Origin: Clostridia bacterium
GTDB taxonomy: Bacteria; Bacillota; Clostridia; Oscillospirales; Acutalibacteraceae
Reading direction: 5' to 3'
Assembly (NCBI GenBank): GCA_017440965.1
Contig: JAFSGH010000021.1
Location: forward strand, 1 to 55,465
DNA: 55,465 bases
Numbering within the stretch: position 1 is the stretch's first letter; the number at the start of each line of letters is the position of its first letter. The notes beneath the pieces were generated by a model. It saw only the letters and a program-made list of their open reading frames with translations, did no database searches and had not been told where the DNA came from. Both the position numbers and the translations under genes were made by a program. Below are positions 17,540-37,349 of the stretch, piece after piece.

Positions 17540-17616
17540 CAATCTGTATAATTATATCGGTGTGCCATTGCGCACGATCGGTGTTTTTGCAACAATTTTT
17601 AAGAGGAGGAATTATT

Positions 17617-20600: not shown

Positions 20601-23600
20601 TGTGGCAGACGTAAAATATGAGACAGGAAATACTCTTCTTGTTGAAATTTCAAAGTGTGTGCCCGTCGCAACGACCCCTGTTATTGCTGAAATGTTCTAT
20701 CAGAGAGGAAGAACTCTCAAGGATATCGAGCTTTCAGGCTCAACCACCTCAGTAGAAGGCTCATGGCAGTGGGTGGATGCAACCATTAATCCCACAGTTG
20801 CTGTTTCCTCCTACAAGGCACAGTTTGTTCCCACTGATACAAGAAACTATGAAATTAAGGTCGTTGATGTTTCAGTTAAGGTAAAGGCTACTCCTGTTGT
20901 TATCTCTTACACAGGCAATGTTTCCTACGGTGATAATATCCCTAATATCACAGCTTATACATATAAATCCGATCTTGATCCTACATTTAATATTGAAGCT
21001 GTAATCACATCAGGTAATATTACTCCTTATACAACCTATGAAAAGGGATCACCTGTTGTAGAAGGCGGTTATCCTGTTGAAATTTCAGCTCCCAACTTTG
21101 TTGATACAAACGGAAACTACATTTTCTCAACCGAAAACGGTGTAATTAATGTTTCTCCCAGACTTATTACCTTCAACGTTCAGAATACTTCAGTAGTTTA
21201 CGGTGAAAACTTTGCTCCCTCTGCATCCAATGTTACTGTTACCTTTGATGAGTCTCTTCTTGTAGGTACAGACACTATAGAGGATATAACAGCAAACGGC
21301 AATGAGCCTACATTCGAGTATTCAACCGATTTCAGATACATTGATAACTATCAGGTTGGTACATACACCATCAAGGCTACTCCTAACTTTACTACATCTG
21401 CAAACTATTCCGTAACATCTGTTCCCGGTACGCTTACAGTTACCAAGGCTTCACTTGTTATCAAGGCAGATGATATCACTCTTGAATACGGCAGTCCCAT
21501 TCCCGAAAACATTTCTTCTGCTTTTGAGGTCGTCGGTGCAAAGAGAAACGAAACTGTTGAGGATGTTGTTTCTTCCGGTTATATCAAGGTTGATACAGTA
21601 TATGAGAAGGGCTCACCCGTTAATACAGACGGATATCCCATTACAGTTGATGTTGCTAACGCAGTATTCAATAACTACATCGTAAATGTACAGCACGGTA
21701 CAGTTACCGTAGTAAAGGCAACTCCCAAGGTAATTACTCTTCCCACTGCAACTATAGTACACGGTCAGACACTTGCTGATGCAAAGTTTACAGGCGGTGA
21801 GGTTGAAAACAACATTGCAGGTAAGTATATTTATAATGCTGCAGCAACAGCACCCGCTTACCGTGCAGATGCTTATACTATTTATACAGCAACCTTCGTT
21901 CCCTCAGATACAGTAAACTATAACACTGTAACAGGTCTTTATGTATCTCTTACTGTTACAAAGAAGCCCGTAACAGGTGCTCTTTCCGTAGCAGGTATTC
22001 CTATGGTAGGTGAGACACTTACAGTAGATGTTTCAGGTCTTGATCCTGATGAGATTGGCGTTTATACACTTACATGGTATAACGGCTCAGGTGCAGTGAT
22101 CGGCACAGGAGACCAGCTGAAGCTTACAGATGCTCATAAACTTCAGGAGCTTAAGGTAACAGCAGTTGCAAATGCTCCTTACACAGGCGAGATCGTATGT
22201 GTAACAACAACTATCGCTCCTTCTCTTACAAGCGTTGAGACTGTTCTCGGTAAGGATGTTTACGATACTTACTTTGAGCTTGCAGGTCTTTCTGAGTATC
22301 TCGGCGAAGCATCATATGTTTATAATGCTCAGCCTCACTACATTGAATTCCAGAGAGATAACAGCAGTCTTTCAAGTGTAGCAATAGGTGATGTTACCGT
22401 TAAGTATAACGGCTCTACAGCGGCTCCCACGAAGGTAGGTTATTACACGGTTACAATCGACATTGCAACTCCTTCCGATGTGGATCTTACACAGGTTCAG
22501 TTTGTTGACGGCGTTTCAATGGTTGGTAATAAGGTAGTTTACTCTCCCATTTCAAACTACAAGATCGGTACTCTTGTTATCACTCCCGCTCCCTATTATG
22601 TAAATCTTGTTGTTCTTGATAAGGTTTATGACGGTACAGGAACTGCAACTGCAGAGATCAAAGAGCAGTACGGTGCATGCGAGCTTACAGGCGGCGGTTA
22701 CGATGATGTATCATTTGATGAGGAAACTGCAGTTTATTACTTCTCCAATCCTACGGTAGGTGCTGACAAGGATGTATTTGTAAACAATGCACAGCTTAAG
22801 GGTGCAGCTGCTGACAACTATGAGATCCAGCTTGCAGTTCTCAATGATGCAAAGGCAGATATTACTAAGAGAACTCTTAAGGTCAAGGTTATTCCCGTTG
22901 AAAGAGAGTACGAGGAAAAGAACTATTATGTAGACCTCAGCTTTGAACCCGTAGCAAATACTGTAGCTGAAGGTGATGACGGTCTTGTATATGTAAACGA
23001 AGCTCTCGTTCAGGGTGCTATCGATAATTACAGAGCAGGCTTAAGAAATGTTACCGTATCAGGTGCAGTTCTTACCGGCTCAAAGGCTGCAAACTATGAT
23101 CTTGAGCTTGTAAATCTTGACGGTCTTACAGTTCAGATCCTTAAGGCAACTCCCTCATATCCCATCCCGATGACAGATGTTCTCTACTATGACAGTGCAA
23201 GACCTCTTAATGCTATCTCTCTCGGAGACAGCCGTTGGAGCTGGGATGCATCCGTCAGAAATGATGTTCCCGGTGCAGGTGTTCACACATATAAGGCTGT
23301 TTACACTCCCGATGATACTCTCAACTTTGCAACTGTTGAGTATGATGTTGAGCTTGAGATCCTTAAGACAACAGTTACTATCACAGCAGCAAACTTTACC
23401 GTAACATACGGTGATATCGAACCCACCTACTACTATTCAGTTACAGGTCTTACAGGTGCAGATACCATTAAGAATTCTGTTGACGGCTATGTTCTTATGA
23501 ACTGCTCATATAAGGCAGGCAGCGATGTCGGTGTATATGATGTTGTTCTTACAGGTGCTTTTGAAAGCGATAACTATTCATTCGTTTATAAGAACGGTAA

Positions 23601-24513
23601 GGTTACCGTAAACAAGAGAGCAGCTTATGTCGAGGCAATTGCAGAAGACAGACAGTATGAGCCCGGCAATCTTAATGTAAATGTTACCTTCTCTGCACTT
23701 ACAAACCTTTACGGAACTGACAGCACAAGCCTCTTCCTTGAAGGTACATTCCCCCTTGTCGGTACTATCGAGGATGAAAATGCCGGTATCAAGAATGTTA
23801 AGTATACTGTTCCCGTTCTTGCAGGTGAAAAGGCAAAGAACTATGACCACAGACTTCTTAACCCCAGTCTTACGGTTGAGATCCAGAAGGCAGTTCTCTC
23901 AGGTGTTGTGCTTCCCAAGTCCGGTGAGGTCTTCTTCGGTCAGAAGCTTAATATGACAGTATTCACATCAAGCTTCGAGGGACACGATTACGGTACATTC
24001 TCAATGGAGAATCCCACCGGAACACCCGAAAAGGTCGGTACATTCTCTGATGTTTATAAGGTTGTATTTACTCCCTATAAGACTCAGAACTATGCAACGA
24101 TCACTCAGTACATCACTCTTACAGTTAAGCCTGCAACTCTTAATGTTGCGATCTCTCTCACAGGTACAGCACAGGTAGGAAAGACCTTGTATGTAATTAC
24201 AAATGATATTCCTGCAAATGCTCATCAGTATCTCTTCTATGAGTGGTACAGAGTAGATTCCCCCGATGCTGATCCCAGAACAGGCTACAAGTTGACTTCC
24301 GGTGTTGATTATTATACACTTACAGAGGCAGACGGCGGCAAGTACATTATGTGTACCGTTACAAACATCAGCGGCTCGCCTTATGAATGCGAAGCAAAGT
24401 GCATAACAGACTCAACAATTGAGGAAGAAACACTTACCTTCTGGCAGAGACTTGTAAACTGGTTCTACAGACTGATTTCAAATATCACTCAGATATTCGG
24501 AAAGCTTATGTAA
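17617..24513 (+). CDS. Giant secreted protein with tandem MBG/Ig-like repeats
   Basis: About 2298 residues. The GTG at 17617 is chosen because an AGAGGAGG site precedes it; a longer frame to 17560 lies inside the leader. A basic N-terminus and hydrophobic segment (about 14-35) form a signal peptide. Residues about 45-440 are rich in Gly/Asn/Thr/Val and in short repeats like V-Y-G-I-H-N-K-G-T-L, suggesting a right-handed beta-solenoid. From about 600 to 2200 there are many Ig-like units of at least three kinds: MBG-type (V-Y-G-D/N, ending N-Y then T-V), YDG-type (V-Y-D-G-T) and units with Y-K-A-x-F-x-P-x-D-T. No LPxTG motif or SLH domain is present; the chain ends in an aromatic amphipathic tail, F-W-Q-R-L-V-N-W-F-Y-R-L. 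Probably a surface adhesin or scaffold; function inferred only. Confidence 0.85.
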   Translation: MKNNSSQNRFARITAKVIVILLAVVMSLSVLPTLSADILPSASAASELYSIPANANLTDVNNKLASYPAGSVVDVTMLGDVVITVSGDTHSSGFTGIIVPANITVNLFMNGKSIKLDRPSGGAWQLPYVYGIHNKGTLNIYSGANASGTNTAAAISLVNVRTGMSPDSKREISFCALEAVHNEGTLSINKGVNITVTSQLHYDKVNTGGSLTNQDSAQVASGATGVYNTSSAASCVLKGVTMNVYAMAEGTFSSNSNGGGYTDSVAVAYGVYGGDVTLQSDSKVTVTSQGNHSRDTYMGSASDGKSYITSVAYGVASNGTVNITGATITHDANINNSDAVKSDGNGRQYLYSGGVFTLAGKSPVMPDATITTPNEDCMNTGDGAVTYRKGAVATCSEMINNATAIVDYMRSFRDHHVQVPVSNVSAGTFIDEAHNGYSTNMATSVNAIPTGITRGATDGTNRVHIIYRYWVDQNRSAIDTSIVGTEGNVGFSYSPLTDGTNVVKSLVTLKGVTSQTNLTKNPDAAIQYLSGADSNNSYYWKLIDVAYAQPSAAFSDYVVTSTANRGTVFQNLAAQNANQGSAPAANGPIYIFVDYARIEPSSIKVKVGTSNIATTTYTGYPIKATDIGLKILDSIYETDFTSEYNVDFDNSELIPVKFSYVGTNTAGVDESNSSGQLPTNAGTYEVTLHITESITYDKNPKINKNRYGLEHKFTLVIDQAPVLRGTLPESVTLTYGQKLSEVILLSTYDGMGIANDGNIAGTFEFTNNSDATAFKNVGENVVSITWKPKYEGTVNTKNYKETTFNVGYTVNKAKLSIRPNAAAVVYGNETFDTPYSVTINGLVANDNTDTVKKTITNALNFMILKGTEYNPYVAGEVAVGSYSIRATFTDVPALLSNYEYELIYGLEGNPEGNLKVSQRAISVIAKATNREYAPDDYTATVTFTISDGKFGVDDVRILAAAGGLSDNNAGTREVSGITKQAVADLVTGGAGKNYYVADVKYETGNTLLVEISKCVPVATTPVIAEMFYQRGRTLKDIELSGSTTSVEGSWQWVDATINPTVAVSSYKAQFVPTDTRNYEIKVVDVSVKVKATPVVISYTGNVSYGDNIPNITAYTYKSDLDPTFNIEAVITSGNITPYTTYEKGSPVVEGGYPVEISAPNFVDTNGNYIFSTENGVINVSPRLITFNVQNTSVVYGENFAPSASNVTVTFDESLLVGTDTIEDITANGNEPTFEYSTDFRYIDNYQVGTYTIKATPNFTTSANYSVTSVPGTLTVTKASLVIKADDITLEYGSPIPENISSAFEVVGAKRNETVEDVVSSGYIKVDTVYEKGSPVNTDGYPITVDVANAVFNNYIVNVQHGTVTVVKATPKVITLPTATIVHGQTLADAKFTGGEVENNIAGKYIYNAAATAPAYRADAYTIYTATFVPSDTVNYNTVTGLYVSLTVTKKPVTGALSVAGIPMVGETLTVDVSGLDPDEIGVYTLTWYNGSGAVIGTGDQLKLTDAHKLQELKVTAVANAPYTGEIVCVTTTIAPSLTSVETVLGKDVYDTYFELAGLSEYLGEASYVYNAQPHYIEFQRDNSSLSSVAIGDVTVKYNGSTAAPTKVGYYTVTIDIATPSDVDLTQVQFVDGVSMVGNKVVYSPISNYKIGTLVITPAPYYVNLVVLDKVYDGTGTATAEIKEQYGACELTGGGYDDVSFDEETAVYYFSNPTVGADKDVFVNNAQLKGAAADNYEIQLAVLNDAKADITKRTLKVKVIPVEREYEEKNYYVDLSFEPVANTVAEGDDGLVYVNEALVQGAIDNYRAGLRNVTVSGAVLTGSKAANYDLELVNLDGLTVQILKATPSYPIPMTDVLYYDSARPLNAISLGDSRWSWDASVRNDVPGAGVHTYKAVYTPDDTLNFATVEYDVELEILKTTVTITAANFTVTYGDIEPTYYYSVTGLTGADTIKNSVDGYVLMNCSYKAGSDVGVYDVVLTGAFESDNYSFVYKNGKVTVNKRAAYVEAIAEDRQYEPGNLNVNVTFSALTNLYGTDSTSLFLEGTFPLVGTIEDENAGIKNVKYTVPVLAGEKAKNYDHRLLNPSLTVEIQKAVLSGVVLPKSGEVFFGQKLNMTVFTSSFEGHDYGTFSMENPTGTPEKVGTFSDVYKVVFTPYKTQNYATITQYITLTVKPATLNVAISLTGTAQVGKTLYVITNDIPANAHQYLFYEWYRVDSPDADPRTGYKLTSGVDYYTLTEADGGKYIMCTVTNISGSPYECEAKCITDSTIEEETLTFWQRLVNWFYRLISNITQIFGKLM

Positions 24514-26173: not shown

Positions 26174-26202
26174 TTGACTTGTAGCCTTGGATTTAGTATA
26201 CT
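26174..26202 (+). promoter_or_regulatory. Promoter of the first T-box unit
   Basis: TTGACT at 26174-26179 and TATACT at 26197-26202 with a 17-base spacer. Confidence 0.8.
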
Positions 26203-26209
26203 TCATTCA

Positions 26210-26484
26210 ATATAAAAAATGCAGTGATGATATTAAGACCGTTTAATTTCAGTTTTCAGAGAGCCGTCGGGTGGTGTAAGACGGTAACAGGTTTTTCGGT
26301 TTGTCTCGTATCGGAGTACGGTTCCTGAACCCCGCTTTGCGGTGTATAGGGAACTGCGGCAGGTTCCGTTATCATGACCTAAGGCTTGAAAGAGTCTGAT
26401 AAGCGGCTGTTTTACAGCAATCCGGGTGGTACCGCGGTAGATTATTATCGTCCCTGAAACTGAGTTTCGGGGATTTATTTTTTT
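26210..26484 (+). promoter_or_regulatory. T-box leader (best-guess specifier CUC, leucine)
   Basis: tRNA-sensing leader in which uncharged tRNA stabilises an antiterminator. Seen directly: the AGAGAG bulge followed by a stem-loop with G-G-T-G-G in the loop (about 26259-26284), the T-box core G-G-G-T-G-G-T-A-C-C-G-C-G-G (26424-26437) and a terminator stem 26451-26460/26464-26473 with a long T run. Folding stem I by eye pairs 26229-26232 with 26309-26312 and 26238-26241 with 26297-26300; the codon just before the lower helix, followed by G as usual, is CTC at 26305-26307. GTC (26303-26305) is a less likely reading. The T-box UGGU fits a tRNA with A at position 73, as in Leu, Ile and Val tRNAs. 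Confidence 0.85.
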
Positions 26485-26504
26485 GCTGAAAAGGAGAATA
26501 CAGT

Positions 26505-27908
26505 ATGAAAAAAATATTGATTACAGATAAAACGATGTCAGGACTTACGGCAGAACTGAGCTTTCGAGAAAAAACAGAAATTGCAAAGCAGCTTGATAAG
26601 TTGGGGGTTGACGTTATCGAGCTTCCTCAGATCAGATCCGACAAGGCAGATGTGCTTCTTGTAAAAAACATCGTAAGTGTTGTAAAGAAGACTGCTGTAA
26701 GCATTCCTGCAGGATTTACAAAGGAAGCTGTTGAATGTGCAGCCTCCTGCATAAAGGATGCCTATTCGCCTGTTCTTGCAGTGGCTCTTCCTATGTCACC
26801 CGCCGGAATGGAATATATGTGCTCATTAAAGCCCGATAAAATGCTCGCTAAAATAGAAGAGCTGGTTTCATACGCGTCAGAGCTTTGCGAAAAGGTTGAA
26901 TTCACTGCTCTTGATGCAACAAGAGCCGAAAAGGAATTTCTTTGTAAGGCTATAGATACAGCTGTAAATGCGGGTGCTTCCTCTGTAACTCTTTGTGATG
27001 ATGCGGGTGTTATGGATGATGATGACTTCTCTGTATTTATAAATGATGTTTTTGAAGCATCAGAAAAAATTTCCGATGTTTCGGTAAATGTTGATGTTTC
27101 CGATGCGATAAGTATGTCCACGGCTTGTATTGCCGCAGCCGTTAAAAACGGTGTATCCGGAATAAAAACAACAGTTGGCGATCACGGCTATGCTGACATT
27201 GAAAGCATTGCGTCTTTTGTGAAGGTAAAGGGTGAAAAGCTCGGAATCAGCATATCTGTAAAGGATGCAACTCTTAAAAATGTCTGTGATGCTATCAAGA
27301 CCTTAGTTTATCAGGACAGATCAAAGGAATCACCTTATAAGGGTGTGATCAGAAGTGACGATGAGGCAGAGCTTCATAAGAATGATGATTTTGCAACCGT
27401 TTCTCAGGCGGTGACAAAAATCGGATATGAGCTCAGTGCAGAGGACAGCTCAAAGGTATATGATGAATTTATAAAAGTAACACAGACGAGAGAGGTAATC
27501 GGAACAAAAGAGCTTGAGGCAATTATTGCCTCTGTCGCGATGCAGGTGCCTTCTACCTACAGACTTGTAAGCTATGTTATAAATGCAGGAAATGTTATTA
27601 CGGCAACTGCAAATCTATGCATTGAAAAGGAAGGTAAGAAGCTCAACGGCGTTTATGTAGGTGACGGTCCCATTGATGCCGCATTTCTTGCAATAGAGCA
27701 GGTCGTAGGCCATCATTTTGAGCTTGATGATTTTCAGATCCAGTCGGTGACCGAGGGCAGAGAGGCAATGGGCCAGGCACTGGTAAAACTTCGCTCTGAT
27801 TCGGGAAAGCTTTATTCGGGAAGCGGTATTTCCACAGACGTGATCGGTGCAAGTATAAAGGCTTATCTTAATGCACTCAATAAAATAGCATTTGAGGAGA
27901 ACAGATGA
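26505..27908 (+). CDS. 2-Isopropylmalate synthase homologue lacking catalytic residues, with LeuA regulatory domain
   Basis: 467 residues. The N-terminal two thirds align by eye with the HMGL-like TIM barrel of isopropylmalate or citramalate synthases (for example V-E-F-T-A-L-D-A-T-R, G-A-S-S-V-T-L-C-D-D-A-G). However, the catalytic D-T-T-L-R-D-G-E-Q reads D-K-T-M-S-G-L-T-A (8-16), so the Arg and metal-binding Asp are gone. The H-C-H-N-D motif is replaced near 192-200 (S-V-N-V-D-V-S-D), and S-P-E-D reads T-A-L-D. The C-terminal leucine-binding dimer domain (about 335-460) looks intact, with V-Y-V-G-D-G-P-I-D-A-A and S-G-S-G-I-S-T-D-V-I. It is therefore probably not a synthase; a regulatory or unknown role is inferred. 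First gene behind the T-box, overlapping the next gene. Confidence 0.8.
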   Translation: MKKILITDKTMSGLTAELSFREKTEIAKQLDKLGVDVIELPQIRSDKADVLLVKNIVSVVKKTAVSIPAGFTKEAVECAASCIKDAYSPVLAVALPMSPAGMEYMCSLKPDKMLAKIEELVSYASELCEKVEFTALDATRAEKEFLCKAIDTAVNAGASSVTLCDDAGVMDDDDFSVFINDVFEASEKISDVSVNVDVSDAISMSTACIAAAVKNGVSGIKTTVGDHGYADIESIASFVKVKGEKLGISISVKDATLKNVCDAIKTLVYQDRSKESPYKGVIRSDDEAELHKNDDFATVSQAVTKIGYELSAEDSSKVYDEFIKVTQTREVIGTKELEAIIASVAMQVPSTYRLVSYVINAGNVITATANLCIEKEGKKLNGVYVGDGPIDAAFLAIEQVVGHHFELDDFQIQSVTEGREAMGQALVKLRSDSGKLYSGSGISTDVIGASIKAYLNALNKIAFEENR

Positions 27909-30406
27909 TGAAACTCTCTTTTTCAACAAGATATATGCCCGATATGCCGTTGTCGGGATATCTCAGCCTTGCACGGGAGCAGAAGTATAAGGCAGTTGAG
28001 ATATATGATATATATAAAGAATGCTTCGGCGGAGAAAAGCCTTCTTTTTCCGAGACAGGTGTCTTTTCAACAAAAAGAAAGCAGCTGAATACCGGTATTT
28101 CAATATCCCAGCTTGATTTTCCATTTGATATATCAGATCCTGCTGATTATGAAGAGAATCTCAGAAAAGCTGAAGAAATAATAATAACTGCATCAAACAT
28201 AAATGTAAGTCTTGTCAAGGCAACAGCGCTTATTGATAAGGAAACGGCTGTCAGCTTTATTAAGGATATAATTGATGTTGCAATAAGAGAAAATGTTATC
28301 ATTCTTATTGAAACTGCAGGTATTTTTAATGCCTCCGCTGTTCTTTGTGAGCTGCTGGATTCCTTTGCGAGTGACTTCCTCGGTGCCTGCTGGAATATGT
28401 ATTCCACCTTCTTTGAAGGAAAGGAGGATGCGGAGATCACCATTAAGAATCTCGGAGCCTATGTTAAATCTGTCAGCATAAATGATGCAGATAATAACGG
28501 AGATCATGTGCTTATCGGAGAGGGAATTCTTCCCGTCGGTGATATGATAAATGCTCTTCGCTCCGTAAACTATAACGGCTATGTTTCAATAGAATGGGAT
28601 CCCGCATGGCTTCCCGAAATAGATGACTTTGAGGTGATTCTTACATTCTTCGAGTCTCATATGAATGCCTACGGAAATCCTAAAAAGAATAAAAAGCATT
28701 TATACAGGAATAATCGCGGAGACGGCAGGTTTATCTGGAAAAAGGAACAGCTTATCGATATGACCTTCCCTCAGGTGCTTGATGCTCAGTGTGAGTCCTT
28801 TCCCGATCAGATTGCTTTTAAGTATACCACTCTTGACTACACAAGGACTTATTCGCAGTTCAGGGATGATGTTGATACCTTTGCAAGAAGCCTTATTGCA
28901 ATGGGCGTCCGTCCCGGTACACATGTTGCTGTATGGGCGACAAATATTCCTCAATGGTATATTGCTTTCTGGGCAGCGACAAAGATAGGTGCTGTGCTTG
29001 TAACTGTAAATACTGCATATAAGATTCATGAGGCCGAGTATCTTTTCAGACAGTCTGATACCCACACTCTTGTTATGATAGATTCGTACCGTGATTCAAA
29101 TTATGCCGAAATCGTAAAGGAGCTGTGTCCCGAGCTTGCTTCTCACCGTTCAGGTGAGCCGCTTCACGCAAAGAGACTGCCGTTCCTCAGAAATGTCATA
29201 ACCTGCGGATTTACAATGGACGGCTGTATGACATGGGATGAAGCAATTGAAAAGGGAAAGAGCGTTCCCGTCGAAGAGGTCTACAGATATGCTTCTCAGG
29301 TAGATAAGGACGATGTATGCAATATGCAGTACACATCGGGTACCACAGGCTTCCCCAAGGGAGTTATGCTTACTCATCATAATGTTGTCAATAACGGTAA
29401 ATGTATCGGTGACAGAATGGATCTTTCGACCGCAGACAGAATGATGATCCAGGTGCCGATGTTCCATTGCTTCGGTATGGTGCTTGCGATGACTGCTTCA
29501 ATGACTCACGGCGCATCACTTATGCCCCTTCCTTATTTCTCACCGAAGCCTGCACTTGCTTGTATAAACAATGAAAAAATAACCGCTTTCCACGGTGTGC
29601 CTACAATGTTTATCGCACTTTTAGGACACGATGACTTTGAAAAAACAGATTTTTCACATATGCGTACCGGTATTATGGCAGGCTCTCCCTGTCCCATAAG
29701 CGTTATGCAGGATGTGGTAAATAAAATGAATATGAAGGAGATAACCATTGTCTACGGACAGACAGAGGCATCTCCCGGATGTACTATGAGCAGTACGGAT
29801 GATCCGCTTGAGGTCAGAGTTGCAACCGTCGGCCGTGCACTTCCCGAAATTGAATGCAAGATCGTAGATCCTGAAACAGGGGAGGATTGCGAAGATAATG
29901 TAACCGGTGAATTCGTTGCAAGAGGCTATAATATTATGAAGGGCTATTATAAAATGCCCAAAGCTACCGCTTCTGCCATCGATAAGGACGGCTGGCTTCA
30001 TACGGGCGACCTTGCCTGCCGAACACCTGAGGGTAATTACAGAATAACCGGCAGACTTAAGGATATGATAATCCGCGGCGGTGAGAATATCTATCCTAAG
30101 GAAATAGAAGAATTCATTTATACTCATCCCAAGGTAAGTGATGTTCAGGTCATCGGTGTGCCTGATGAAGCTATGGGCGAAGAAATAATGGCCTGCGTTA
30201 TCCTTAAGGAAGGTGAAACGATGACGGAAAATGAAATGAAGCAGTATGTAAGAGACCATATGGCAAAGCATAAGGTTCCGAAATATATTGACTTCGTTGA
30301 TGCTTTCCCGATGAACGCTGCCGGAAAGATACTTAAGTATAAAATGCGTGAAGACGCAGTTAAAAAGCTCGGTCTGCAGAAGGCCGATTCCATAGTTACC
30401 GCGTAA
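27905..30406 (+). CDS. Fusion: xylose-isomerase-like TIM barrel plus AMP-forming acyl-CoA ligase
   Basis: 833 residues. The first 260 resemble the sugar-phosphate isomerase/epimerase (AP-endonuclease-2-like) barrel: M-K-L-S-F-S-T-R-Y at the start, I-L-I-E-T-A-G in the middle and G-Y-V-S-I-E-W-D near its end. From about 275 there is a full acyl-CoA synthetase: Y-T-S-G-T-T-G-F-P-K-G, V-Y-G-Q-T-E-A-S-P, H-T-G-D-L, G-R-L-K-D-M-I-I-R-G-G-E-N-I-Y-P and the catalytic lysine in A-A-G-K-I-L-K-Y. It should activate a carboxylic acid to its CoA thioester with ATP. Linked VOR and aminotransferase genes suggest a branched short-chain acid. The start overlaps the previous stop; the ATG at 27908 (GAGGAG 7 bases upstream) may be the real one. 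The role of the barrel is unknown. Confidence 0.85.
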   Translation: MMKLSFSTRYMPDMPLSGYLSLAREQKYKAVEIYDIYKECFGGEKPSFSETGVFSTKRKQLNTGISISQLDFPFDISDPADYEENLRKAEEIIITASNINVSLVKATALIDKETAVSFIKDIIDVAIRENVIILIETAGIFNASAVLCELLDSFASDFLGACWNMYSTFFEGKEDAEITIKNLGAYVKSVSINDADNNGDHVLIGEGILPVGDMINALRSVNYNGYVSIEWDPAWLPEIDDFEVILTFFESHMNAYGNPKKNKKHLYRNNRGDGRFIWKKEQLIDMTFPQVLDAQCESFPDQIAFKYTTLDYTRTYSQFRDDVDTFARSLIAMGVRPGTHVAVWATNIPQWYIAFWAATKIGAVLVTVNTAYKIHEAEYLFRQSDTHTLVMIDSYRDSNYAEIVKELCPELASHRSGEPLHAKRLPFLRNVITCGFTMDGCMTWDEAIEKGKSVPVEEVYRYASQVDKDDVCNMQYTSGTTGFPKGVMLTHHNVVNNGKCIGDRMDLSTADRMMIQVPMFHCFGMVLAMTASMTHGASLMPLPYFSPKPALACINNEKITAFHGVPTMFIALLGHDDFEKTDFSHMRTGIMAGSPCPISVMQDVVNKMNMKEITIVYGQTEASPGCTMSSTDDPLEVRVATVGRALPEIECKIVDPETGEDCEDNVTGEFVARGYNIMKGYYKMPKATASAIDKDGWLHTGDLACRTPEGNYRITGRLKDMIIRGGENIYPKEIEEFIYTHPKVSDVQVIGVPDEAMGEEIMACVILKEGETMTENEMKQYVRDHMAKHKVPKYIDFVDAFPMNAAGKILKYKMREDAVKKLGLQKADSIVTA

Positions 30407-30442
30407 TTAAAAAAATTAATGGATTTTATTAAATATGTGATG

Positions 30443-30471
30443 TTGACAAATATATATACATATGATATTAT
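30443..30471 (+). promoter_or_regulatory. Promoter of the second T-box unit
   Basis: TTGACA at 30443-30448 and TATTAT at 30466-30471, spacer 17 bases. Confidence 0.75.
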
Positions 30472-30477
30472 TCATTC

Positions 30478-30735
30478 AATGGCTGTGACGAAGAGGCCGA
30501 AAGAAATACCGAAATCAGAGAAACGGCGGATGGTGCGAGCCGTGTGAGGGTTCTTTCAAGGGCTATCGCTTCTGAGCCGGAAGCGCGAAATAACAGTAGT
30601 GTTTCCCGAGTATGCTGCGTTAGTGCAAAGGAGTTGTCGGACTCTGAAGCGGCAACGGCAATAGCCGATGCAATTTGAGTGGTACCGCGGAAAAATTTTC
30701 CGTCTCAAAGAATTTTCTTTGGGACGGATTTTGTA
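30478..30735 (+). promoter_or_regulatory. T-box leader (best-guess specifier AUC, isoleucine)
   Basis: This fills the 350-base gap between the two ligase genes. Stem I base 30481-30484 pairs with 30575-30578, a kink-turn-like bulge follows, then 30490-30493 pairs with 30569-30572. The codon before that helix, followed by G, is ATC at 30565-30567. The AGAGAAA bulge and G-G-A-T-G-G-T-G loop lie near 30516-30542. The T-box core G-A-G-T-G-G-T-A-C-C-G-C-G-G is at 30677-30690, and the terminator pairs 30700-30710 with 30717-30727 before a T-rich stretch. Codon identity is inferred from hand folding. Confidence 0.85.
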
Positions 30736-30756
30736 TTTATAAAGGAGGTTTTTAGT

Positions 30757-33030
30757 ATGCCAACGACAACGAATACGGATAATAAGCTTTATGAGGTTGC
30801 GCGCCGAATTAAGGAGATGCGCTCTATTTGCGATTTTACTATAGAGCAAATGGCAGAAAAGACCGAGGTTACACCTGAACAGTATAGTGCATATGAGGGT
30901 GGTGCAGAGGATCTTCCTTTCTCTTTTATTCATAAATGTGCCCTTGCTTTTGATATAGGTATTACCGATCTTCTTGAAGGTCACAGTGCAAAGCTTACTT
31001 CCTATACCGTAACAAGAAAAGGCGAAGGCCAGACAACAGCAAAGGAAAACGGCATAGAGATACAGAACCTTGCTCCCTTGTTCAAGGATAAGCTCGGTGA
31101 TCCCTATTGGGTAAGATACGAGTATTCTGCTGAGCTTGAGGGAAAGCCTATTCATACAACAACTCACGCAGGTCAGGAATTTGACCTTGTTATAAGCGGA
31201 AGCCTTATGGTAAAGGTCGGTGATCATACTGAGATACTTCATGAGGGTGACAGTATTTATTATAAGAGCTCAACTCCTCACGGTATGATAGCTGTTGACG
31301 GCAGAGACTGTGTTTTCCTTGCATTTATTCTTGCTTCTGACGAAGCTCCCGAGGATATTGCTAAAAACAGAATTATGCCCGAGGCATCCGTAAAGGAATC
31401 GCTTATCTGCCATAAGTTTGTTAAGCCTGTTGAAAATGAAAACGGCGAGCTTCTCGATATCAGCTTTGATAAAACGGAAGAATTTAATTTCGTCTATGAT
31501 GTCGTTGATAAGATCGCAAAGAAGTCTCCCGAAAAAACTGCAATGATACACATTTCCAGAGATAAGCAGGAAAGAGTGTTTACATATCAGGATATAAAGG
31601 AATATTCCTGCCAGACTGCTAACTATTTCAGATCCCTCGGTATAAAAAAGGGCGACAGAGTTATGCTTGTTCTTAAGCGTCACTATCAGTTCTGGTTCTC
31701 GATCCTTGCTCTTCACAGACTCGGTGCTATAGTAATTCCCGCAACCCATCAGTTGCAGGCGCACGACTTTGAATACCGCTTCAATGCGGCAGGTGTCAGT
31801 GCTATTATCTGTACATCTGATGATAACACTCCTATGCACGTTGATGAATGCGCAGATAAGTGTCCTTCGCTTGTAACAAAGGTCGTCGTGGGTGAGCCGA
31901 GAGAGGGTTGGCACGATTTTAATGCTGAATATCAGCTGTTCTCAAGAAGATTCAGAAGAGAAGAGGATACCCCCTGCGGTAATGATCCTATGCTTATGTT
32001 CTTCACATCAGGCACAACAGGATATCCTAAGATCGCAACTCACAGCTTCTCATATCCTCTTGCTCATTTTGTTACGGCAAAATACTGGCACAGTGTAAGT
32101 AAGGATGGCTTACATTTTACAATATCCGACACCGGCTGGGGTAAGGCACTCTGGGGTAAGCTTTACGGACAGTGGCTTTGCGAGGGATCTGTTTTTGTAT
32201 ATGATTTTGACAGATTTGATGCATCAGAGATCCTTCCTATGTTTGCAAAATACAATATTACGACCTTCTGTGCACCTCCTACAATGTACAGAATGCTCAT
32301 AAAACAGGATCTTTCAAAGTACGATCTTTCATCCATCCGTCACGCTACTATTGCAGGTGAAGCACTTAATCCTGAGGTATTCAAGCAGTTTGAGGCTGCA
32401 ACGGGACTTCAGCTTATGGAAGGCTTCGGTCAGACGGAGACTACGCTTACAATTGCAAATCTTATCGGTACAACACCCAAGCCCGGTTCAATGGGTAAGG
32501 CTAATCCCATGTATGATATTGATATCATAAAAGCAGACGGAACACCTGCTCAGCTCGGTGAAAACGGTGAGATAGTAGTACGCACCTCCGAAAAGGTACC
32601 CTGCGGTCTCTTCCTCGGTTATTATAATCAGCAGGAAAAAACCGATGAGGTATGGCACGACGGCTATTATCATACGGGAGACCTTGCCTGGAAGGATGAG
32701 GACGGTCATTTCTGGTATGTGGGCAGAGTTGACGATGTTATCAAGTCATCAGGCTACCGCATAGGACCCTTTGAGATAGAAAATGTTATTATGGAGCTTC
32801 CCTATGTTCTTGAATGCGGTGTTTCTGCTGAGCCTGATGAGCTTCGCGGTCAGGTAGTTAAGGCAAGCATCGTTCTTACAAAGGGTACAGAGCCCACAGA
32901 GGAGCTCAAAAAAGAGATTCAGAAATATGTCAAGGAGCATACAGCTCCCTATAAGTATCCGAGAATAGTCGTATTCAGAGATTCTCTTCCCAAGACTATA
33001 AGCGGAAAAATACAGAGAAACAAGCTTTGA
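30757..33030 (+). CDS. Fusion: HTH-cupin regulator-like module plus AMP-forming acyl-CoA ligase
   Basis: 757 residues; start at the ATG 30757 behind AAAGGAGG. Residues about 10-70 form an XRE-type helix-turn-helix (I-E-Q-M-A-E-K-T-E-V). Residues about 110-200 are a cupin barrel with F-D-L-V-I-S-G-S-L and H-E-G-D-S-I-Y-Y, then T-P-H-G. From about 240 to the end there is an acyl-CoA synthetase most like the medium-chain/ACSM group: F-F-T-S-G-T-T-G-Y-P-K, E-G-F-G-Q-T-E, H-T-G-D-L, D-D-V-I-K-S-S-G-Y-R-I and the catalytic lysine in I-S-G-K-I-Q-R-N. HTH-cupin is usual in regulators, so a ligase sensing its acid or binding DNA is possible but unproven. First gene of the unit with CooC-like ATPase, VOR and ilvE. 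Confidence 0.85.
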   Translation: MPTTTNTDNKLYEVARRIKEMRSICDFTIEQMAEKTEVTPEQYSAYEGGAEDLPFSFIHKCALAFDIGITDLLEGHSAKLTSYTVTRKGEGQTTAKENGIEIQNLAPLFKDKLGDPYWVRYEYSAELEGKPIHTTTHAGQEFDLVISGSLMVKVGDHTEILHEGDSIYYKSSTPHGMIAVDGRDCVFLAFILASDEAPEDIAKNRIMPEASVKESLICHKFVKPVENENGELLDISFDKTEEFNFVYDVVDKIAKKSPEKTAMIHISRDKQERVFTYQDIKEYSCQTANYFRSLGIKKGDRVMLVLKRHYQFWFSILALHRLGAIVIPATHQLQAHDFEYRFNAAGVSAIICTSDDNTPMHVDECADKCPSLVTKVVVGEPREGWHDFNAEYQLFSRRFRREEDTPCGNDPMLMFFTSGTTGYPKIATHSFSYPLAHFVTAKYWHSVSKDGLHFTISDTGWGKALWGKLYGQWLCEGSVFVYDFDRFDASEILPMFAKYNITTFCAPPTMYRMLIKQDLSKYDLSSIRHATIAGEALNPEVFKQFEAATGLQLMEGFGQTETTLTIANLIGTTPKPGSMGKANPMYDIDIIKADGTPAQLGENGEIVVRTSEKVPCGLFLGYYNQQEKTDEVWHDGYYHTGDLAWKDEDGHFWYVGRVDDVIKSSGYRIGPFEIENVIMELPYVLECGVSAEPDELRGQVVKASIVLTKGTEPTEELKKEIQKYVKEHTAPYKYPRIVVFRDSLPKTISGKIQRNKL

Positions 33031-33034
33031 TAAT

Positions 33035-33691
33035 ATGAAAAGAATAACAATACTTGCCGGACACTATGGTTCCGGCAAGACCAATATAGCGGTAAATCTT
33101 GCACTTAAGATGAAAAAAGACGGCTTTGATACTGTAATTGCCGATCTTGATATTGTAAATCCTTATTTCAGAACAAAGGATTCTCTTGACAGACTTGAGG
33201 AATCAGGTATAAAATTAATATCGTCGGAATATGCAAATTCCAATGTGGATATTCCGGCTGTGCCTCAGGAAATGTACTCGATAGTCGATGATAAGGAAAA
33301 ATACTATGTTGTTGACCTCGGAGGCGATGACAGAGGCGCATTTGCTCTCGGCAGGTATTCGGATAAGATAAAGGAAGAAAACGATTACGAATTTATCTTT
33401 GTCTTCAATAAATACAGACCTCTGACACCCGATGCCTTAAGTGCAATTGAGGTTATGAGAGAAATTGAAGCTGCCTGCAATATGAGCTTTACTGCAATCG
33501 TAAACAATTCCAATATCGGCGAAATGACAGATGAAGAAGCAGTGCTTTCATCTTTTGCGGAATGTGAAAGGCTTTCTGTTGCCTCAGGACTTCCCGTTCT
33601 TTTTACCTCTGTAAGTGCAGAGCTTTACGGAAGTCTCATTAAAAAGGCAGAAAATCTGTTTTCGCTGGAGCTTCAGAAGAAAATTATTTGA
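33035..33691 (+). CDS. CooC/MinD-like P-loop ATPase
   Basis: 218 residues. The N-terminus has the P-loop G-H-Y-G-S-G-K-T-N (about 9-17), and [11 protein letters not shown] and V-V-D-L-G-G-D-D (Walker-B-like) follow. This places it in the SIMIBI group (MinD/CooC/ArsA), which often load metal clusters or nickel into enzymes; the extra lysine of classic deviant P-loops is not obvious. It lies 4 bases after the ligase gene and overlaps the region just ahead of the ferredoxin gene. A role in assembling or activating the iron-sulfur oxidoreductase encoded next is plausible, by position only. Confidence 0.75.
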
Positions 33692-33705
33692 ATGGAGAGA
33701 ATATA

Positions 33706-33912
33706 ATGGCAAAAGTTATTTTTACGGAAGACCTTTGTAAGGGCTGCGGACTTTGTGTCGGTGCATGCCCCAAGGGTATCATAAAGCTGTCGGAAAGCCG
33801 TCTTAATGTCAAAGGCCATCATCCTGCCGAAATGACTGACCAAGCTTCTTGCATTGCGTGTGCATTCTGCGCAACGATGTGTCCCGATTGTGTAATTACT
33901 GTTGAGAGGTGA
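33706..33912 (+). CDS. 2x[4Fe-4S] ferredoxin / delta-type subunit of the 2-oxoacid oxidoreductase
   Basis: 68 residues from the ATG 33706 behind GGAGAG. Two cluster motifs are complete: [12 protein letters not shown] (about 12-23) and [12 protein letters not shown] (about 49-60). As the delta subunit in VOR/KOR complexes, it would pass electrons between ferredoxin and the TPP subunit. It overlaps or abuts the alpha-subunit gene by a few bases, so it is very likely part of the complex. Confidence 0.92.
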
Positions 33913-33917
33913 AAATA

Positions 33918-34979
33918 ATGAGTGATATGGTATTAATGAAGGGAAATGAAGCGATAGCGGAGGCTGCTATTAAGGCAGGCTGCCGTCATTACTTCGGTTA
34001 TCCCATTACTCCTCAGACTGAGGTTGCGGCATATATGTCCAAGAGAATGCCTAAAATAGGCGGAACATTCCTTCAGGCAGAAAGTGAAGTTGCCGCTATT
34101 AATATGGTTATAGGTGTTGCTTCCACCGGAAAAAGAGTTATGACCTCCTCTTCTTCTCCCGGAATCTCCCTTAAGAGTGAAGGTATTTCATACCTTGCAG
34201 GCTGTGACCTTCCCGCTCTTGTTGTCAATGTTCAGAGAGGCGGCCCCGGTCTTGGCGGTATTCAGCCTTCACAGTCTGACTATTGGCAGGCAGTAAAGGG
34301 CGGAAGCCACGGTGATTTTCATAATATAGTTCTTGCTCCCGCTTCCGTTCAGGAAATGGCAAGCCTTACGGTAAAAGGCTTCGAGCTTGCCGATAAATAC
34401 AGAATGGTATCAATGATACTTGCAGACGGTACTATGGGACAGATGATGGAGCCCGTATCTCTTGATATAGAAAGCACCTTCAATGTTGAAAAGCCATGGG
34501 CAGTTACAGGTACCAAGGGAGAAAGAAAGCACAATATCGTAAATTCTCTTTTCCTTCAGCCCGAAGAGCTTGAAAAGAAGAACTTTGAAAGATTTGAAAG
34601 ATATAAGCTCGTAGAAGCTAATGAAGCTATGTATGAGGAATATCTTATGGATGATGCAGAGATATGTGTTGTTGCATTCGGTATCACATCCCGTGTTGCA
34701 AAGAACGCTATCAATGAAGCAAGAAAGCAGGGAATAAAGGCAGGACTTATCCGTCCTATTACTCTCTGGCCCTTCCCCAAGGCTGCTCTTTACAATGCTG
34801 CTGATAAATGTAAGGCATTTATCTCAGTTGAAATGAATATGGGACAGATGATCGAGGATGTAGAACTTAGTATCAGATGTAAAAAGCCCGTTCATCTTTG
34901 CTGCCGTACAGGCGGTATGATCCCCGCACCCGAGCAGGTGCTTGCAAAAATTATTGAGGTTAATGAAAAGGAGGCTTGA
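33918..34979 (+). CDS. vorB: 2-Oxoacid:ferredoxin oxidoreductase, alpha subunit (VorB/KorA type)
   Basis: About 353 residues; the ATG 33918 sits behind GAGGTGA. The alpha subunit carries the pyrimidine-binding and transketolase C-terminal-like domains. Visible are M-K-G-N-E-A-I-A-E-A-A, F-G-Y-P-I-T-P-Q-T-E, Q-A-E-S-E-V-A-A-I-N, S-S-S-S-P-G-I-S-L-K and Q-R-G-G-P-G-L-G. These match the short (separate-subunit) KorA/VorB class rather than one-chain pyruvate oxidoreductases. With ilvE and acyl-CoA ligases in the unit, branched 2-oxo acids (2-oxoisovalerate, 2-oxoisocaproate, 2-oxo-3-methylvalerate) are the likely substrates; 2-oxoglutarate is the main alternative. Confidence 0.88.
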   Translation: MSDMVLMKGNEAIAEAAIKAGCRHYFGYPITPQTEVAAYMSKRMPKIGGTFLQAESEVAAINMVIGVASTGKRVMTSSSSPGISLKSEGISYLAGCDLPALVVNVQRGGPGLGGIQPSQSDYWQAVKGGSHGDFHNIVLAPASVQEMASLTVKGFELADKYRMVSMILADGTMGQMMEPVSLDIESTFNVEKPWAVTGTKGERKHNIVNSLFLQPEELEKKNFERFERYKLVEANEAMYEEYLMDDAEICVVAFGITSRVAKNAINEARKQGIKAGLIRPITLWPFPKAALYNAADKCKAFISVEMNMGQMIEDVELSIRCKKPVHLCCRTGGMIPAPEQVLAKIIEVNEKEA

Positions 34980-34981
34980 GT

Positions 34982-35737
34982 ATGGCTATTGTATTTGAAA
35001 AACCTAAGGCACTTACCGATGCCGTGCTTCACTATTGTCCCGGCTGTACTCACGGTATTATACACCGTCTTGTCGCAGAAGTAATTGACGAACTGGGAAT
35101 TGAAGGAAAGACCATAGGTGTTGCACCCGTCGGTTGCTCCGTTATGGCATATAATTATTTTACCGTTGATTTTGTTCAGGCGGCTCACGGCAGAGCACCC
35201 GCAGTTGCAACGGGTGTAAAGAGAAGCGATCCCGATAATATCGTCTTTACATATCAGGGAGACGGTGACCTTGCTGCTATAGGTACTGCAGAAACAGTAC
35301 ATGCGGCAGCAAGAAGAGAAAATATCACTGTTATTTTCGTAAATAATGCAATTTACGGTATGACAGGCGGTCAGATGGCTCCTACCACACTTCCCGGTCA
35401 GGTCACACAGACCTCTCCTTACGGAAGAGATGTTTCAACAGTCGGCTATCCCGTAAAGGTATGTGAGCTTCTCAGCAATGTTGACGGTGCGGCTTATCTT
35501 GAAAGAGTTGCCGTCAATAATGTAAAGAATATAAGAAACGCAAAGAAGGCTATCAAAAAGGCCTTCCAAAATCAGATAGACGGAAAAGGCTTCTCTCTTA
35601 TCGAGGTGCTTTCCACTTGCCCCACAAACTGGGGTATGTCTCCCGAAAAAGCCCTCACATGGCTTGAGGATAATATGATCCCTTACTATCCCTTAGGTGT
35701 GTATAAGGACATAACAGCAGAAAAGGAGGCAGAATAA
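34982..35737 (+). CDS. vorA: 2-Oxoacid:ferredoxin oxidoreductase, beta (TPP-binding) subunit
   Basis: About 251 residues; ATG 34982 with AAGGAGG upstream. The N-terminus has H-Y-C-P-G-C-T-H-G, where the cysteines are typical of KorB/VorA, and G-V-A-P-V-G-C-S-V. The TPP motif G-D-G-D-L-A-A-I-G (about 95-103) ends with V-N-N-A-I-Y-G-M-T-G-G-Q-M. It binds thiamine diphosphate and interacts with CoA and the oxo acid. The start lies 2 bases after the alpha-subunit stop, and the stop codon overlaps the gamma start by one base (TAATG), indicating translational coupling. Confidence 0.9.
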   Translation: MAIVFEKPKALTDAVLHYCPGCTHGIIHRLVAEVIDELGIEGKTIGVAPVGCSVMAYNYFTVDFVQAAHGRAPAVATGVKRSDPDNIVFTYQGDGDLAAIGTAETVHAAARRENITVIFVNNAIYGMTGGQMAPTTLPGQVTQTSPYGRDVSTVGYPVKVCELLSNVDGAAYLERVAVNNVKNIRNAKKAIKKAFQNQIDGKGFSLIEVLSTCPTNWGMSPEKALTWLEDNMIPYYPLGVYKDITAEKEAE

Positions 35738-36270
35738 TGGCTACTGTAAATATGCTTTTTGCAGGCTTCGGCGGTCAGGGTATCCTTTTTGCAGGAAAAT
35801 TTCTTGCCTATAAGGGTCTTATTGAAGGTAAGCAGGTAAGCTGGCTTCCTTCCTACGGTCCCGAAATGCGTGGCGGTACTGCTAACTGCTCTGTTATTTT
35901 AAGTGATGCCCCCATCGGCTCTCCCATTGTAGATAAGCCTGATGTGCTTATTGCTATGAACCTTCCTTCTCTTGATAAGTATGAGGATGCAGTTGTTCCC
36001 GGCGGAAAGATTTTTGTTGATTCAACTCTTATCGGCAGAAAGGTCAACAGAACAGATGTTGAAGTTTTCTATGTTCCCGCTTCAGGTCTTGCCAATGAAA
36101 AGAACTTAAGAACGCTTGCCAATATGATAATTACCGGTAAGGTTATAAAGGAAGTATCTGAAATCGGCAATGATAATCTTGAGACTGCTCTTAATAAGGT
36201 CATATCAGCAAGACACCAGGATATGCTCAAATTCAATCTCGATGCTCTTAATATAGGAGCACAGCTTTAA
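35737..36270 (+). CDS. vorC: 2-Oxoacid:ferredoxin oxidoreductase, gamma subunit
   Basis: 177 residues of the POR/KOR gamma family: [11 protein letters not shown] near the N-terminus, [13 protein letters not shown] and V-D-S-T-L. It completes a four-part alpha/beta/gamma/ferredoxin enzyme. The reaction is oxo acid + CoA + oxidised ferredoxin to acyl-CoA + CO2 + reduced ferredoxin, which is reversible. ilvE follows after 17 bases. Confidence 0.9.
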
Positions 36271-36287
36271 AAGAGGCGTAATATAAA

Positions 36288-37349
36288 ATGGATATCAGAA
36301 TTATCAAAAATCCTTCACCTTCTGAAAAGCCGGATGAAAACGCTCTCGGTTTCGGACTGACTTATACCGATCATATGTTTATCATGGATTATAACAGATC
36401 TGTAGGTTGGCATAATGCAAGAATCGTTCCCTTTGGTCCGCTTGAGATCCATCCTGCGGCTGTGGTATTGCATTACGGTGCAGAGGTTTTTGAGGGGCTT
36501 AAGGCTTACCGTGCTGCTGACGGGACGGTAAGGTTATTCAGACCTCTTGACAATATAAGAAGAATGAATGACTCGGCAGAACGTCTTTGTCTTCCGGTTA
36601 TAGACGAAGATGATGCAATGCAGGCTTTGGTTGAATTCGTAAGGCTTGAGCAGGATTTTGTCCCGCATAAGAGTGGAACCTCTTTATATATCCGGCCTTT
36701 TATGATCGCAACAGAAGCAAATCTTGGTCTTCACGGTATAAATGAGGCGTCCTTCATAATAATCGCATCTCCGAGCGGAAGCTATTATAAAGAGGGTATT
36801 TCTCCTGTTTCAATTATGATTGAAACAGAAGATGTAAGAGCTGTTAAGGGCGGAACGGGATATGCCAAGTGCGGCGGTAACTATGCCGCCAGCACAAGAG
36901 CAGGTGAAAGGGCAGAGAAACTCGGATTTTCGCAGGTGCTGTGGCTTGACGGAGTTGAACGGAAATACATAGAAGAAGTCGGTTCAATGAATGTAATGTT
37001 TAAGATAGCAGGTAAGGTAATAACTCCTGATCTTATAGGAACAGTTCTTCCCGGTATTACAAGACGATCAATATTGGAGATGCTTCGCGATGAAGGATAT
37101 GAAGTTGAGGAACGCAGAATAAGTGTAGAAGAAATAATTAATGCACTTGAAAACGGTACTCTTGAAGAAGCCTTCGGTTGCGGCACTGCCGCTGTTGTTT
37201 CTCCTATGGGAAAGCTTGTGTTTAACGGCAGAGAATACACTATCAATAATAACGAGATAGGTCCCCTTACTGCTCATTTGTATGATACTTTAACCGGTAT
37301 TCAATGGGGTCGACTTGAAGATACTAAAGGTTGGGTTTTAACGATCTGA
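36288..37349 (+). CDS. ilvE: Branched-chain amino acid aminotransferase
   Basis: PLP enzyme of fold type IV that transfers the amino group of glutamate to the oxo acids of Val, Leu and Ile. 353 residues, the longer (BCAT II-like) form. Visible are H-Y-G-A-E-V-F-E-G-L-K-A-Y-R (about 63-76), R-P-F-M-I-A-T-E, Y-A-K-C-G-G-N-Y-A-A-S with the PLP lysine, E-E-V-G-S-M-N-V-M-F and C-G-T-A-A-V-V-S-P. It is the last gene of the second T-box unit and closes the proposed fatty-acid-to-amino-acid route. Confidence 0.95.
   Translation: MDIRIIKNPSPSEKPDENALGFGLTYTDHMFIMDYNRSVGWHNARIVPFGPLEIHPAAVVLHYGAEVFEGLKAYRAADGTVRLFRPLDNIRRMNDSAERLCLPVIDEDDAMQALVEFVRLEQDFVPHKSGTSLYIRPFMIATEANLGLHGINEASFIIIASPSGSYYKEGISPVSIMIETEDVRAVKGGTGYAKCGGNYAASTRAGERAEKLGFSQVLWLDGVERKYIEEVGSMNVMFKIAGKVITPDLIGTVLPGITRRSILEMLRDEGYEVEERRISVEEIINALENGTLEEAFGCGTAAVVSPMGKLVFNGREYTINNNEIGPLTAHLYDTLTGIQWGRLEDTKGWVLTI

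Follow-up and report, generated by a model that had tools for sequence, protein, structure and literature searches.

Organization of the locus

Positions 1-55,465 of contig JAFSGH010000021.1 of a Clostridia bacterium (family Acutalibacteraceae, assembly GCA_017440965.1), referred to here as the window, harbor between positions 26174 and 37349 a gene cluster predicted to make leucine and isoleucine, and probably valine, from salvaged branched short-chain acids. All parts of the cluster lie on the forward strand and form two units, each headed by a T-box leader (Table 1). Unit 1 comprises T-box 1, a gene for a pseudoenzyme resembling the 2-isopropylmalate synthase LeuA (designated pLeuA) and a gene encoding a TIM barrel fused to an AMP-forming acyl-CoA ligase (TIM-ligase), and the two genes overlap by 4 nt. 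Unit 2 comprises T-box 2, an AMP-forming ligase fused to helix-turn-helix (HTH) and cupin domains (cupin-ligase), a CooC-like ATPase, a ferredoxin, the 2-oxoisovalerate-type oxidoreductase (VOR) subunits VorBAC and the aminotransferase IlvE; the ferredoxin is likely the VOR electron carrier. The initial annotation had recognized two T-box-led units with two ligases, the ATPase, the ferredoxin, the VOR subunits and IlvE, all of which were recovered on the forward strand, but it had overlooked the first gene of unit 1, pLeuA, and had not noticed that both ligases are fusion proteins.

Some of these parts score below model cut-offs, namely pLeuA with TIGR00973 (234 versus 599 bits), VorA with TIGR02177 (120 versus 262 bits) and the VOR gamma subunit with TIGR02175 (57 versus 81 bits). 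T-box 2 also falls under the RF00230 gathering score (87 versus 93 bits), and its stem I was not singled out by free-energy folding alone (z −0.52). It presents, however, AGAGA, TGGTACCGCG and a specifier loop, and it was called a T-box because of the covariance model, these motifs and its conservation in relatives.

Table 1. Features of the cluster, with window positions and the matches that identify them.
Feature	Position	Strand	Identification
T-box leader 1	26215-26458	+	RF00230 95.6 bits (above gathering score 93); specifier CUC (Leu) at 26305-26307
pLeuA, LeuA-like pseudoenzyme, 467 aa	26505-27908	+	PF08502 7e-30; PF00682 (HMGL-like) 1.7e-25
TIM barrel (AP_endonuc_2) + AMP-forming acyl-CoA ligase fusion, 833 aa	27905-30406	+	Pfam/NCBIfam
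T-box leader 2	30476-30710	+	RF00230 87 bits, E 1.4e-19; specifier AUC (Ile) at 30565-30567
HTH_19 + Cupin_2 + AMP-forming ligase, 757 aa	30757-33030	+	Pfam
CooC/ParA-like P-loop ATPase	33035-33691	+	weak Pfam matches; recurs in gene order of relatives
2x[4Fe-4S] ferredoxin, 68 aa	33706-33912	+	Fer4 4.2e-11
VorB, 2-oxoisovalerate-type oxidoreductase, alpha part	33909-34979	+	NF005507 541 bits (above cut-off 399)
VorA, thiamine pyrophosphate-binding beta part	34976-35737	+	PF02775 6.7e-23
VorC, gamma subunit	35737-36270	+	PF01558 4.2e-32
IlvE, branched-chain aminotransferase	36288-37349	+	NF009897 466 bits (above 307); TIGR01123 393 bits (above 250)

Specifier codons of the T-box leaders

Specifiers were read by a rule for stem I, in which the codon is followed by one base, four bases pairing with the 5′ strand and then NGAG. 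In the genome to which the window belongs (G000; 2.28 Mb, 86 contigs, 86% complete), this rule fits the leaders of seven tRNA-synthetase genes, namely leuS (CUC), pheS (UUC), asnS (AAC), tyrS (UAC), ileS (AUC), alaS (GCC) and thrS (ACC). NCBIfam confirmed these genes, six of them over the cut-off and ileS from a fragment truncated where the locus ends. The calibration is helpful, not blind, because only the pheS and thrS leaders were read by script, the other five having been read by eye with the gene already known. The initial annotation had not read the specifiers, on which the assignment of the ligases depends. Besides the Leu and Ile leaders of the window, the same genome carries a GUA (Val) T-box ahead of another HTH-cupin-ligase gene (contig 33) and a UUC (Phe) T-box ahead of the gene for a PaaK-like ligase on contig 73 (L004/L164), which matches the whole TIGR02155 model with 543 bits, below the cut-off of 646.

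The leaders were compared across 110 loci, made up of the window, 29 regions (3.7-20 kb) surrounding pLeuA in relatives and 80 named loci, which are the best 80 of at least 593 pattern-matching stretches. The named loci come nearly all from metagenome-assembled genomes labelled Clostridia or families within, and the sample names of many refer to ruminants or the gut. Upstream of pLeuA, 80 motif hits were reduced to 76 T-boxes by removing two duplicates (L048 and L139) and two spurious matches (L092 and L124), and a Leu codon was read in 75 of the 76 readable leaders (64 CUC and 11 CUG; one AUC), five of them by eye. Before the cupin-ligases, 48 hits, or 47 without one duplicate, consisted of 24 AUC, 15 GUA and 6 GUC leaders and two cut by contig ends, so that the 45 readable leaders were divided into 24 Ile and 21 Val (three read by eye). 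The PaaK-like ligase was matched in 44 of 59 genomes compared; of 30 PaaK-like loci, 10 had a T-box motif within ~520 nt, all reading UUC (by eye), and 20 had none. This Phe T-box suggests that phenylalanine is made from phenylacetate.

Motif hits before vorA were discarded as T-boxes, since their positions fall inside vorB, and those before the CooC and ferredoxin genes were discarded as chance matches, except for a Leu (CUC) T-box ahead of a CooC-ferredoxin-VOR unit at L152:5530.

Divergence and predicted substrates of the ligases

The cupin-ligases were placed in a maximum-likelihood tree of 56 rows (quick method, with Shimodaira-Hasegawa-like approximate likelihood-ratio test, SH-aLRT, support only), including 22 Ile rows, 22 Val rows (among them the paralogue of the same genome), 10 without a T-box and two cut. 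A single change suffices for the Ile/Val labels of the 44 labelled rows, and the 22 Val rows sit with three unlabelled rows behind one branch of SH-aLRT 100. It was observed that residue 462 is Gly in 22/22 Ile rows and Ala in 22/22 Val rows, and that within the ligase part (aa 240-757) it is the only position at which the two sets share no residue. Four residues further on is the Trp that corresponds to MacsMa Trp259, which is kept in all 56 rows, and having the bulkier residue by the acyl pocket in the enzymes with the smaller predicted acid would fit the T-box code. Twelve other positions without a common residue fall in aa 46-216 (HTH, cupin and linker), as would be expected if the HTH/cupin part senses different ligands. 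In a distant trio of cupin-ligases (L106:16753, L146:18851 and L147:16315), the Gly/Ala position is occupied by Leu, Ala or Met.

Among solved structures, 3ETC, the MacsMa enzyme of Methanosarcina acetivorans, was the best match for both cupin-ligases of the genome (653 bits for the window protein and 613 for the paralogue), and the best NCBIfam match of the window protein was MbcS (NF047394, 434 bits, under the cut-off of 850). MacsMa is reported to prefer 2-methylbutyrate (PMC10455477), and the Staphylococcus aureus MbcS to act selectively on 2-methylbutyrate and isobutyrate while using isovalerate very poorly (PMC10026030). These preferred acids are those predicted by the Ile and Val codons, which supports the substrates proposed for the cupin-ligases: judging from their relatives, the window enzyme is a predicted 2-methylbutyrate-CoA ligase, and the Val-controlled paralogue a predicted isobutyrate ligase. 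The catalytic domain is shared with MacsMa and MbcS; unlike these, the present cupin-ligases carry a fused N-terminal HTH and cupin, are under T-box control and are split into Ile and Val paralogues. The poor use of isovalerate by MbcS, in turn, fits an isovalerate ligase drawn from another subfamily, and the TIM-ligase, a putative isovalerate-CoA ligase, has a different best model (PRK12583, 691 bits, below the cut-off of 832), as expected of a separate isovalerate enzyme.

A carbon-nitrogen hydrolase was found directly behind the Val-controlled cupin-ligase (L163:5193-5972), and in 4 of 108 loci a comparable open reading frame (ORF) lies next to a cupin-ligase or VorC gene. An Amidohydro_2 protein occurs near the cluster in 26 of 108 loci (e.g., L060:17829-18764), in 20 of them beside the TIM-ligase. 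A sugar-isomerase metal site in the TIM barrel was considered but is not claimed: across 92 rows its ligand positions are variable, and the window copy has lost some of them. When plasmids were searched with the TIM-ligase, no record covered 80% of it.

pLeuA, a LeuA-like protein without catalytic motifs

The initial annotation had proposed a search for co-occurrence of the gene order, and this search revealed the TIM-ligase together with pLeuA in 108 of the 110 loci, within 100 nt in 103 of them, while in the other two a contig end lies within 400 nt. No more than 20 nt separated the two genes in 91 of the 105 cases measured, and the pair remained constant while the larger gene orders varied among relatives. 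Given this co-occurrence across 110 loci, the pairing is not a matter of chance. In a sample of the class, pLeuA was found (E ≤ 1e-60) in 28 of 196 genomes and 22 of 132 genera.

pLeuA has the HMGL-like barrel and the LeuA_dimer domain in common with LeuA, from which it differs in the lack of four catalytic motifs and in the tie of its gene to an acyl-CoA ligase. RDGxQ (in the N-terminal part) and HxHND, GE[RK]xGN and HQHG (in the whole protein) are each absent from 110/110 rows, whereas canonical LeuA controls retain them in 6/7, 7/7, 7/7 and 7/7 cases, respectively. A single RDGxQ string was found in L107, in the distant C-terminal domain, and all 109 aligned rows are gapped at the HQHG segment. 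The LeuA_dimer domain PF08502, on the other hand, was kept (104 bits against a gathering score of 24.9), and in 109 rows the commonest residue had a mean share of 0.76 in this regulatory domain and 0.52 in the barrel. Against the nearest relative (L047), a dN/dS of 0.11 was obtained from a single comparison in which dS was high (1.3). This value and the better conserved regulatory domain indicate that pLeuA is no relic.

pLeuA is thus a candidate leucine-sensing pseudoenzyme, through which leucine feedback would reach the ligase. It is proposed tentatively, as something that may well prove right or wrong, that LeuA, the first enzyme of the classical leucine pathway and the target of its feedback inhibition, was kept in dead form as a leucine sensor when these bacteria abandoned that pathway, and was rewired to the isovalerate ligase that took its place. 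Together with the T-box of each ligase, this would yield a two-level code, with the tRNA read at the RNA level and the amino acid at the protein level. A rather less probable, if serious, alternative is that pLeuA is not a leucine-dependent regulator and acts instead as a scaffold for the TIM-ligase or as an enzyme with a new chemistry. In its favor, the barrel retains invariant residues (e.g., M102, E103, Y104 and D137), so that a CoA ester or an oxo acid may still be bound there; the universal loss of the four motifs, the HQHG gap and the fact that LeuA_dimer is the best conserved part speak against this alternative.

Proposed reductive carboxylation in place of the classical pathway

The anatomy of the cluster, the specifier codons and their conservation, the loss of motifs in pLeuA and the failure to find the classical enzymes are established by the sequence. 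They are best explained, with high probability, by a salvage route based on reductive carboxylation that replaces the classical Val/Leu/Ile pathway, with a T-box for each ligase and pLeuA as proposed leucine sensor. In this route, branched acids from outside, shed by neighbours, would be converted into CoA esters by dedicated AMP-forming ligases: the TIM-ligase would take isovalerate for leucine, the window cupin-ligase 2-methylbutyrate for isoleucine and the paralogue encoded elsewhere isobutyrate for valine. VOR and ferredoxin would then carboxylate the CoA esters reductively to 2-oxo acids, which IlvE would transaminate to the amino acids. Because its T-box carries the codon of that amino acid, each ligase would be made when its own tRNA is uncharged, and pLeuA, a LeuA without an active site, would detect leucine with its retained regulatory domain and restrain the isovalerate ligase encoded next to it. 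The specificity of VOR for branched substrates and its direction are predictions, and the direction of flux, the action of pLeuA and the substrate of the TIM-ligase are likewise what we infer.

The biosynthetic direction claimed in the initial annotation (acid to acyl-CoA, 2-oxo acid and amino acid) is supported by the branched-chain amino acid T-boxes, by the classical enzymes not found and by the substrates of the cupin-ligase relatives. Reductive carboxylation of branched acids in the source organism, a gut or rumen bacterium, is a prediction well supported by genomics. The accompanying claim of a whole route is right only in part, since the window does not suffice for all three amino acids: it encodes VOR, IlvE and the ligases under Leu and Ile control, and the one under Val control is encoded on a different contig.

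As to the classical genes, whose absence had been suggested as a check, the genome of the window yielded no match to IlvC or IlvD, each of which was found in 14/14 control genomes. No acetohydroxyacid synthase (AHAS) exceeded the cut-off either, the sole match to the AHAS model reaching 187 of 538 bits and adjoining genes that resemble, by eye, an inositol cluster. A single frame of the aconitase family had the length of an aconitase (683 aa), and no LeuA-family match besides pLeuA was found at E ≤ 1e-30. Among 59 genomes, 30 with full-length pLeuA and 29 without, IlvC was found in 3/30 versus 13/29, AHAS over the cut-off in 6/30 versus 17/29, and LeuA over the cut-off in 0/30 versus 7/29. IlvD, however, showed no difference (12/30 with pLeuA versus 12/29 without).

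This last result is one of several that weigh against the proposed route. Fisher tests gave p values of 0.003-0.005 for IlvC, AHAS and LeuA, and of 0.004-0.03 in the 41 genomes at least 90% complete, but these tests are not independent, since 23 of the 30 pLeuA genomes belong to one genus. The LeuA cut-off was reached by only 9/14 control genomes, and three pLeuA genomes (G017, G051 and G057) carry another long LeuA-family match. Some pLeuA carriers may indeed have other routes, given that three have IlvC, six have an over-cut-off AHAS and IlvD is equally common. The absences in the genome of the window are no proof, because it is 86% complete and in 86 contigs. Regarding the code, T-box 1 and several pLeuA leaders tied Leu with a 5-bp-helix reading (UCU), and the 4-bp rule was fixed afterwards; T-box 1 was read as CUC because the Rfam alignment has a 4-bp helix and because tie-free pLeuA leaders of other genomes also read CUC. 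The sole Ile (AUC) leader before pLeuA, at L145 (4975), is a true exception, and in 30 of the 110 loci no T-box motif was found at a distance of up to 320 nt from pLeuA, in some of them because the gene is internal to a longer unit or close to the end of the contig. Finally, VOR can run oxidatively.

Two other roles of the cluster were considered. The ligases could mainly supply branched-chain fatty acid synthesis, with VOR and IlvE only linking the pools; S. aureus MbcS, a characterized relative, supplies branched-chain fatty acid primers (PMC10026030). This role is improbable, since separate Leu, Ile and Val T-boxes on individual ligases, and VOR and IlvE genes that share the ligase units, indicate that amino acids are what is made, although some branched acids may flow to lipids alongside. 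Similarly improbable is a Stickland-like breakdown of branched amino acids to acids for energy, biosynthetic only in appearance, which draws on the reversible chemistry of VOR and on the involvement of enzymes of this kind in the fermentation of amino acids by other anaerobes, but which conflicts with T-boxes that turn genes on at amino-acid scarcity, the opposite of a catabolic signal, with the ATP consumed by AMP-forming ligases, and with a genome in which no IlvC, IlvD, over-cut-off AHAS or second LeuA was found and which therefore needs another source of Val/Leu/Ile.

Relation to known systems

The reductive-carboxylation route shares its chemistry and habitat with the branched-acid carboxylation of the rumen (isovalerate to leucine, isobutyrate to valine and 2-methylbutyrate to isoleucine). 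According to PMC7356843, isovalerate can be carboxylated directly to give leucine, and isoleucine has 2-methylbutyrate as a precursor; its reference list includes Allison, Bryant and Doetsch 1962 (ruminococci), Allison and Peel 1971 (valine from isobutyrate), Robinson (ref. 44) and Allison 1965 (phenylalanine from phenylacetate), the latter conversion being an aromatic parallel in the rumen. As far as the literature searched tells, rumen carboxylation is known as physiology, and the gene assignment, the T-box code and pLeuA belong to the present system. The T-box regulons surveyed in PMC2494555 and PMC3766115 involve the same leader class and the same uncharged-tRNA logic, and in the main text of both surveys the terms 'CoA ligase', 'phenylacetate' and 'oxidoreductase' have no occurrence. 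A literature search, with most subscription journals outside it, returned no title on T-box-controlled branched-acid ligases or on a LeuA pseudoenzyme. Thus, the chemistry is old (physiology of 1962-71), while the gene assignment, the T-box code and the pseudoenzyme appear new within the literature searched.

The leaders offer substrate predictions for four ligases, and the T-box code provides a sequence test for microbes that need branched acids from others, which is of interest for cross-feeding and feed additives. If true, the two-level code would state the substrate of each ligase and make acid-salvaging gut bacteria recognizable from sequence alone, and pLeuA would be a possible case of an enzyme of a displaced pathway surviving as a sensor of its replacement.

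Related gene sets and neighboring genes

On contig 65 of the same genome (L171:4993-10148), an AMP-ligase, an indolepyruvate oxidoreductase (IOR) alpha subunit (over the cut-off), an IOR beta subunit and a class I aminotransferase (the last two named by eye) stand in a row. This set is a putative aromatic-acid counterpart of the window set, with the same logic; no T-box was found at it in the T-box listing of the genome. A further three-subunit set resembling 2-oxoacid oxidoreductases, with no T-box of its own, is present on contig 50 (L170:6007-8379). In other loci, IOR-alpha-like genes follow the TIM-ligase in four cases, including L056:4001-10310, and IOR-beta-like genes adjoin PaaK-like genes in four (both named by eye).

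A Trp (UGG, by eye) T-box was also observed on contig 65 (15721-15964; L010) before a small membrane protein that has no NCBIfam match and resembles a subunit of energy-coupling factor-type transporters. Upstream of the cluster, the window encodes a repeat-rich, surface-type ORF of 2317 aa (17560-24513).

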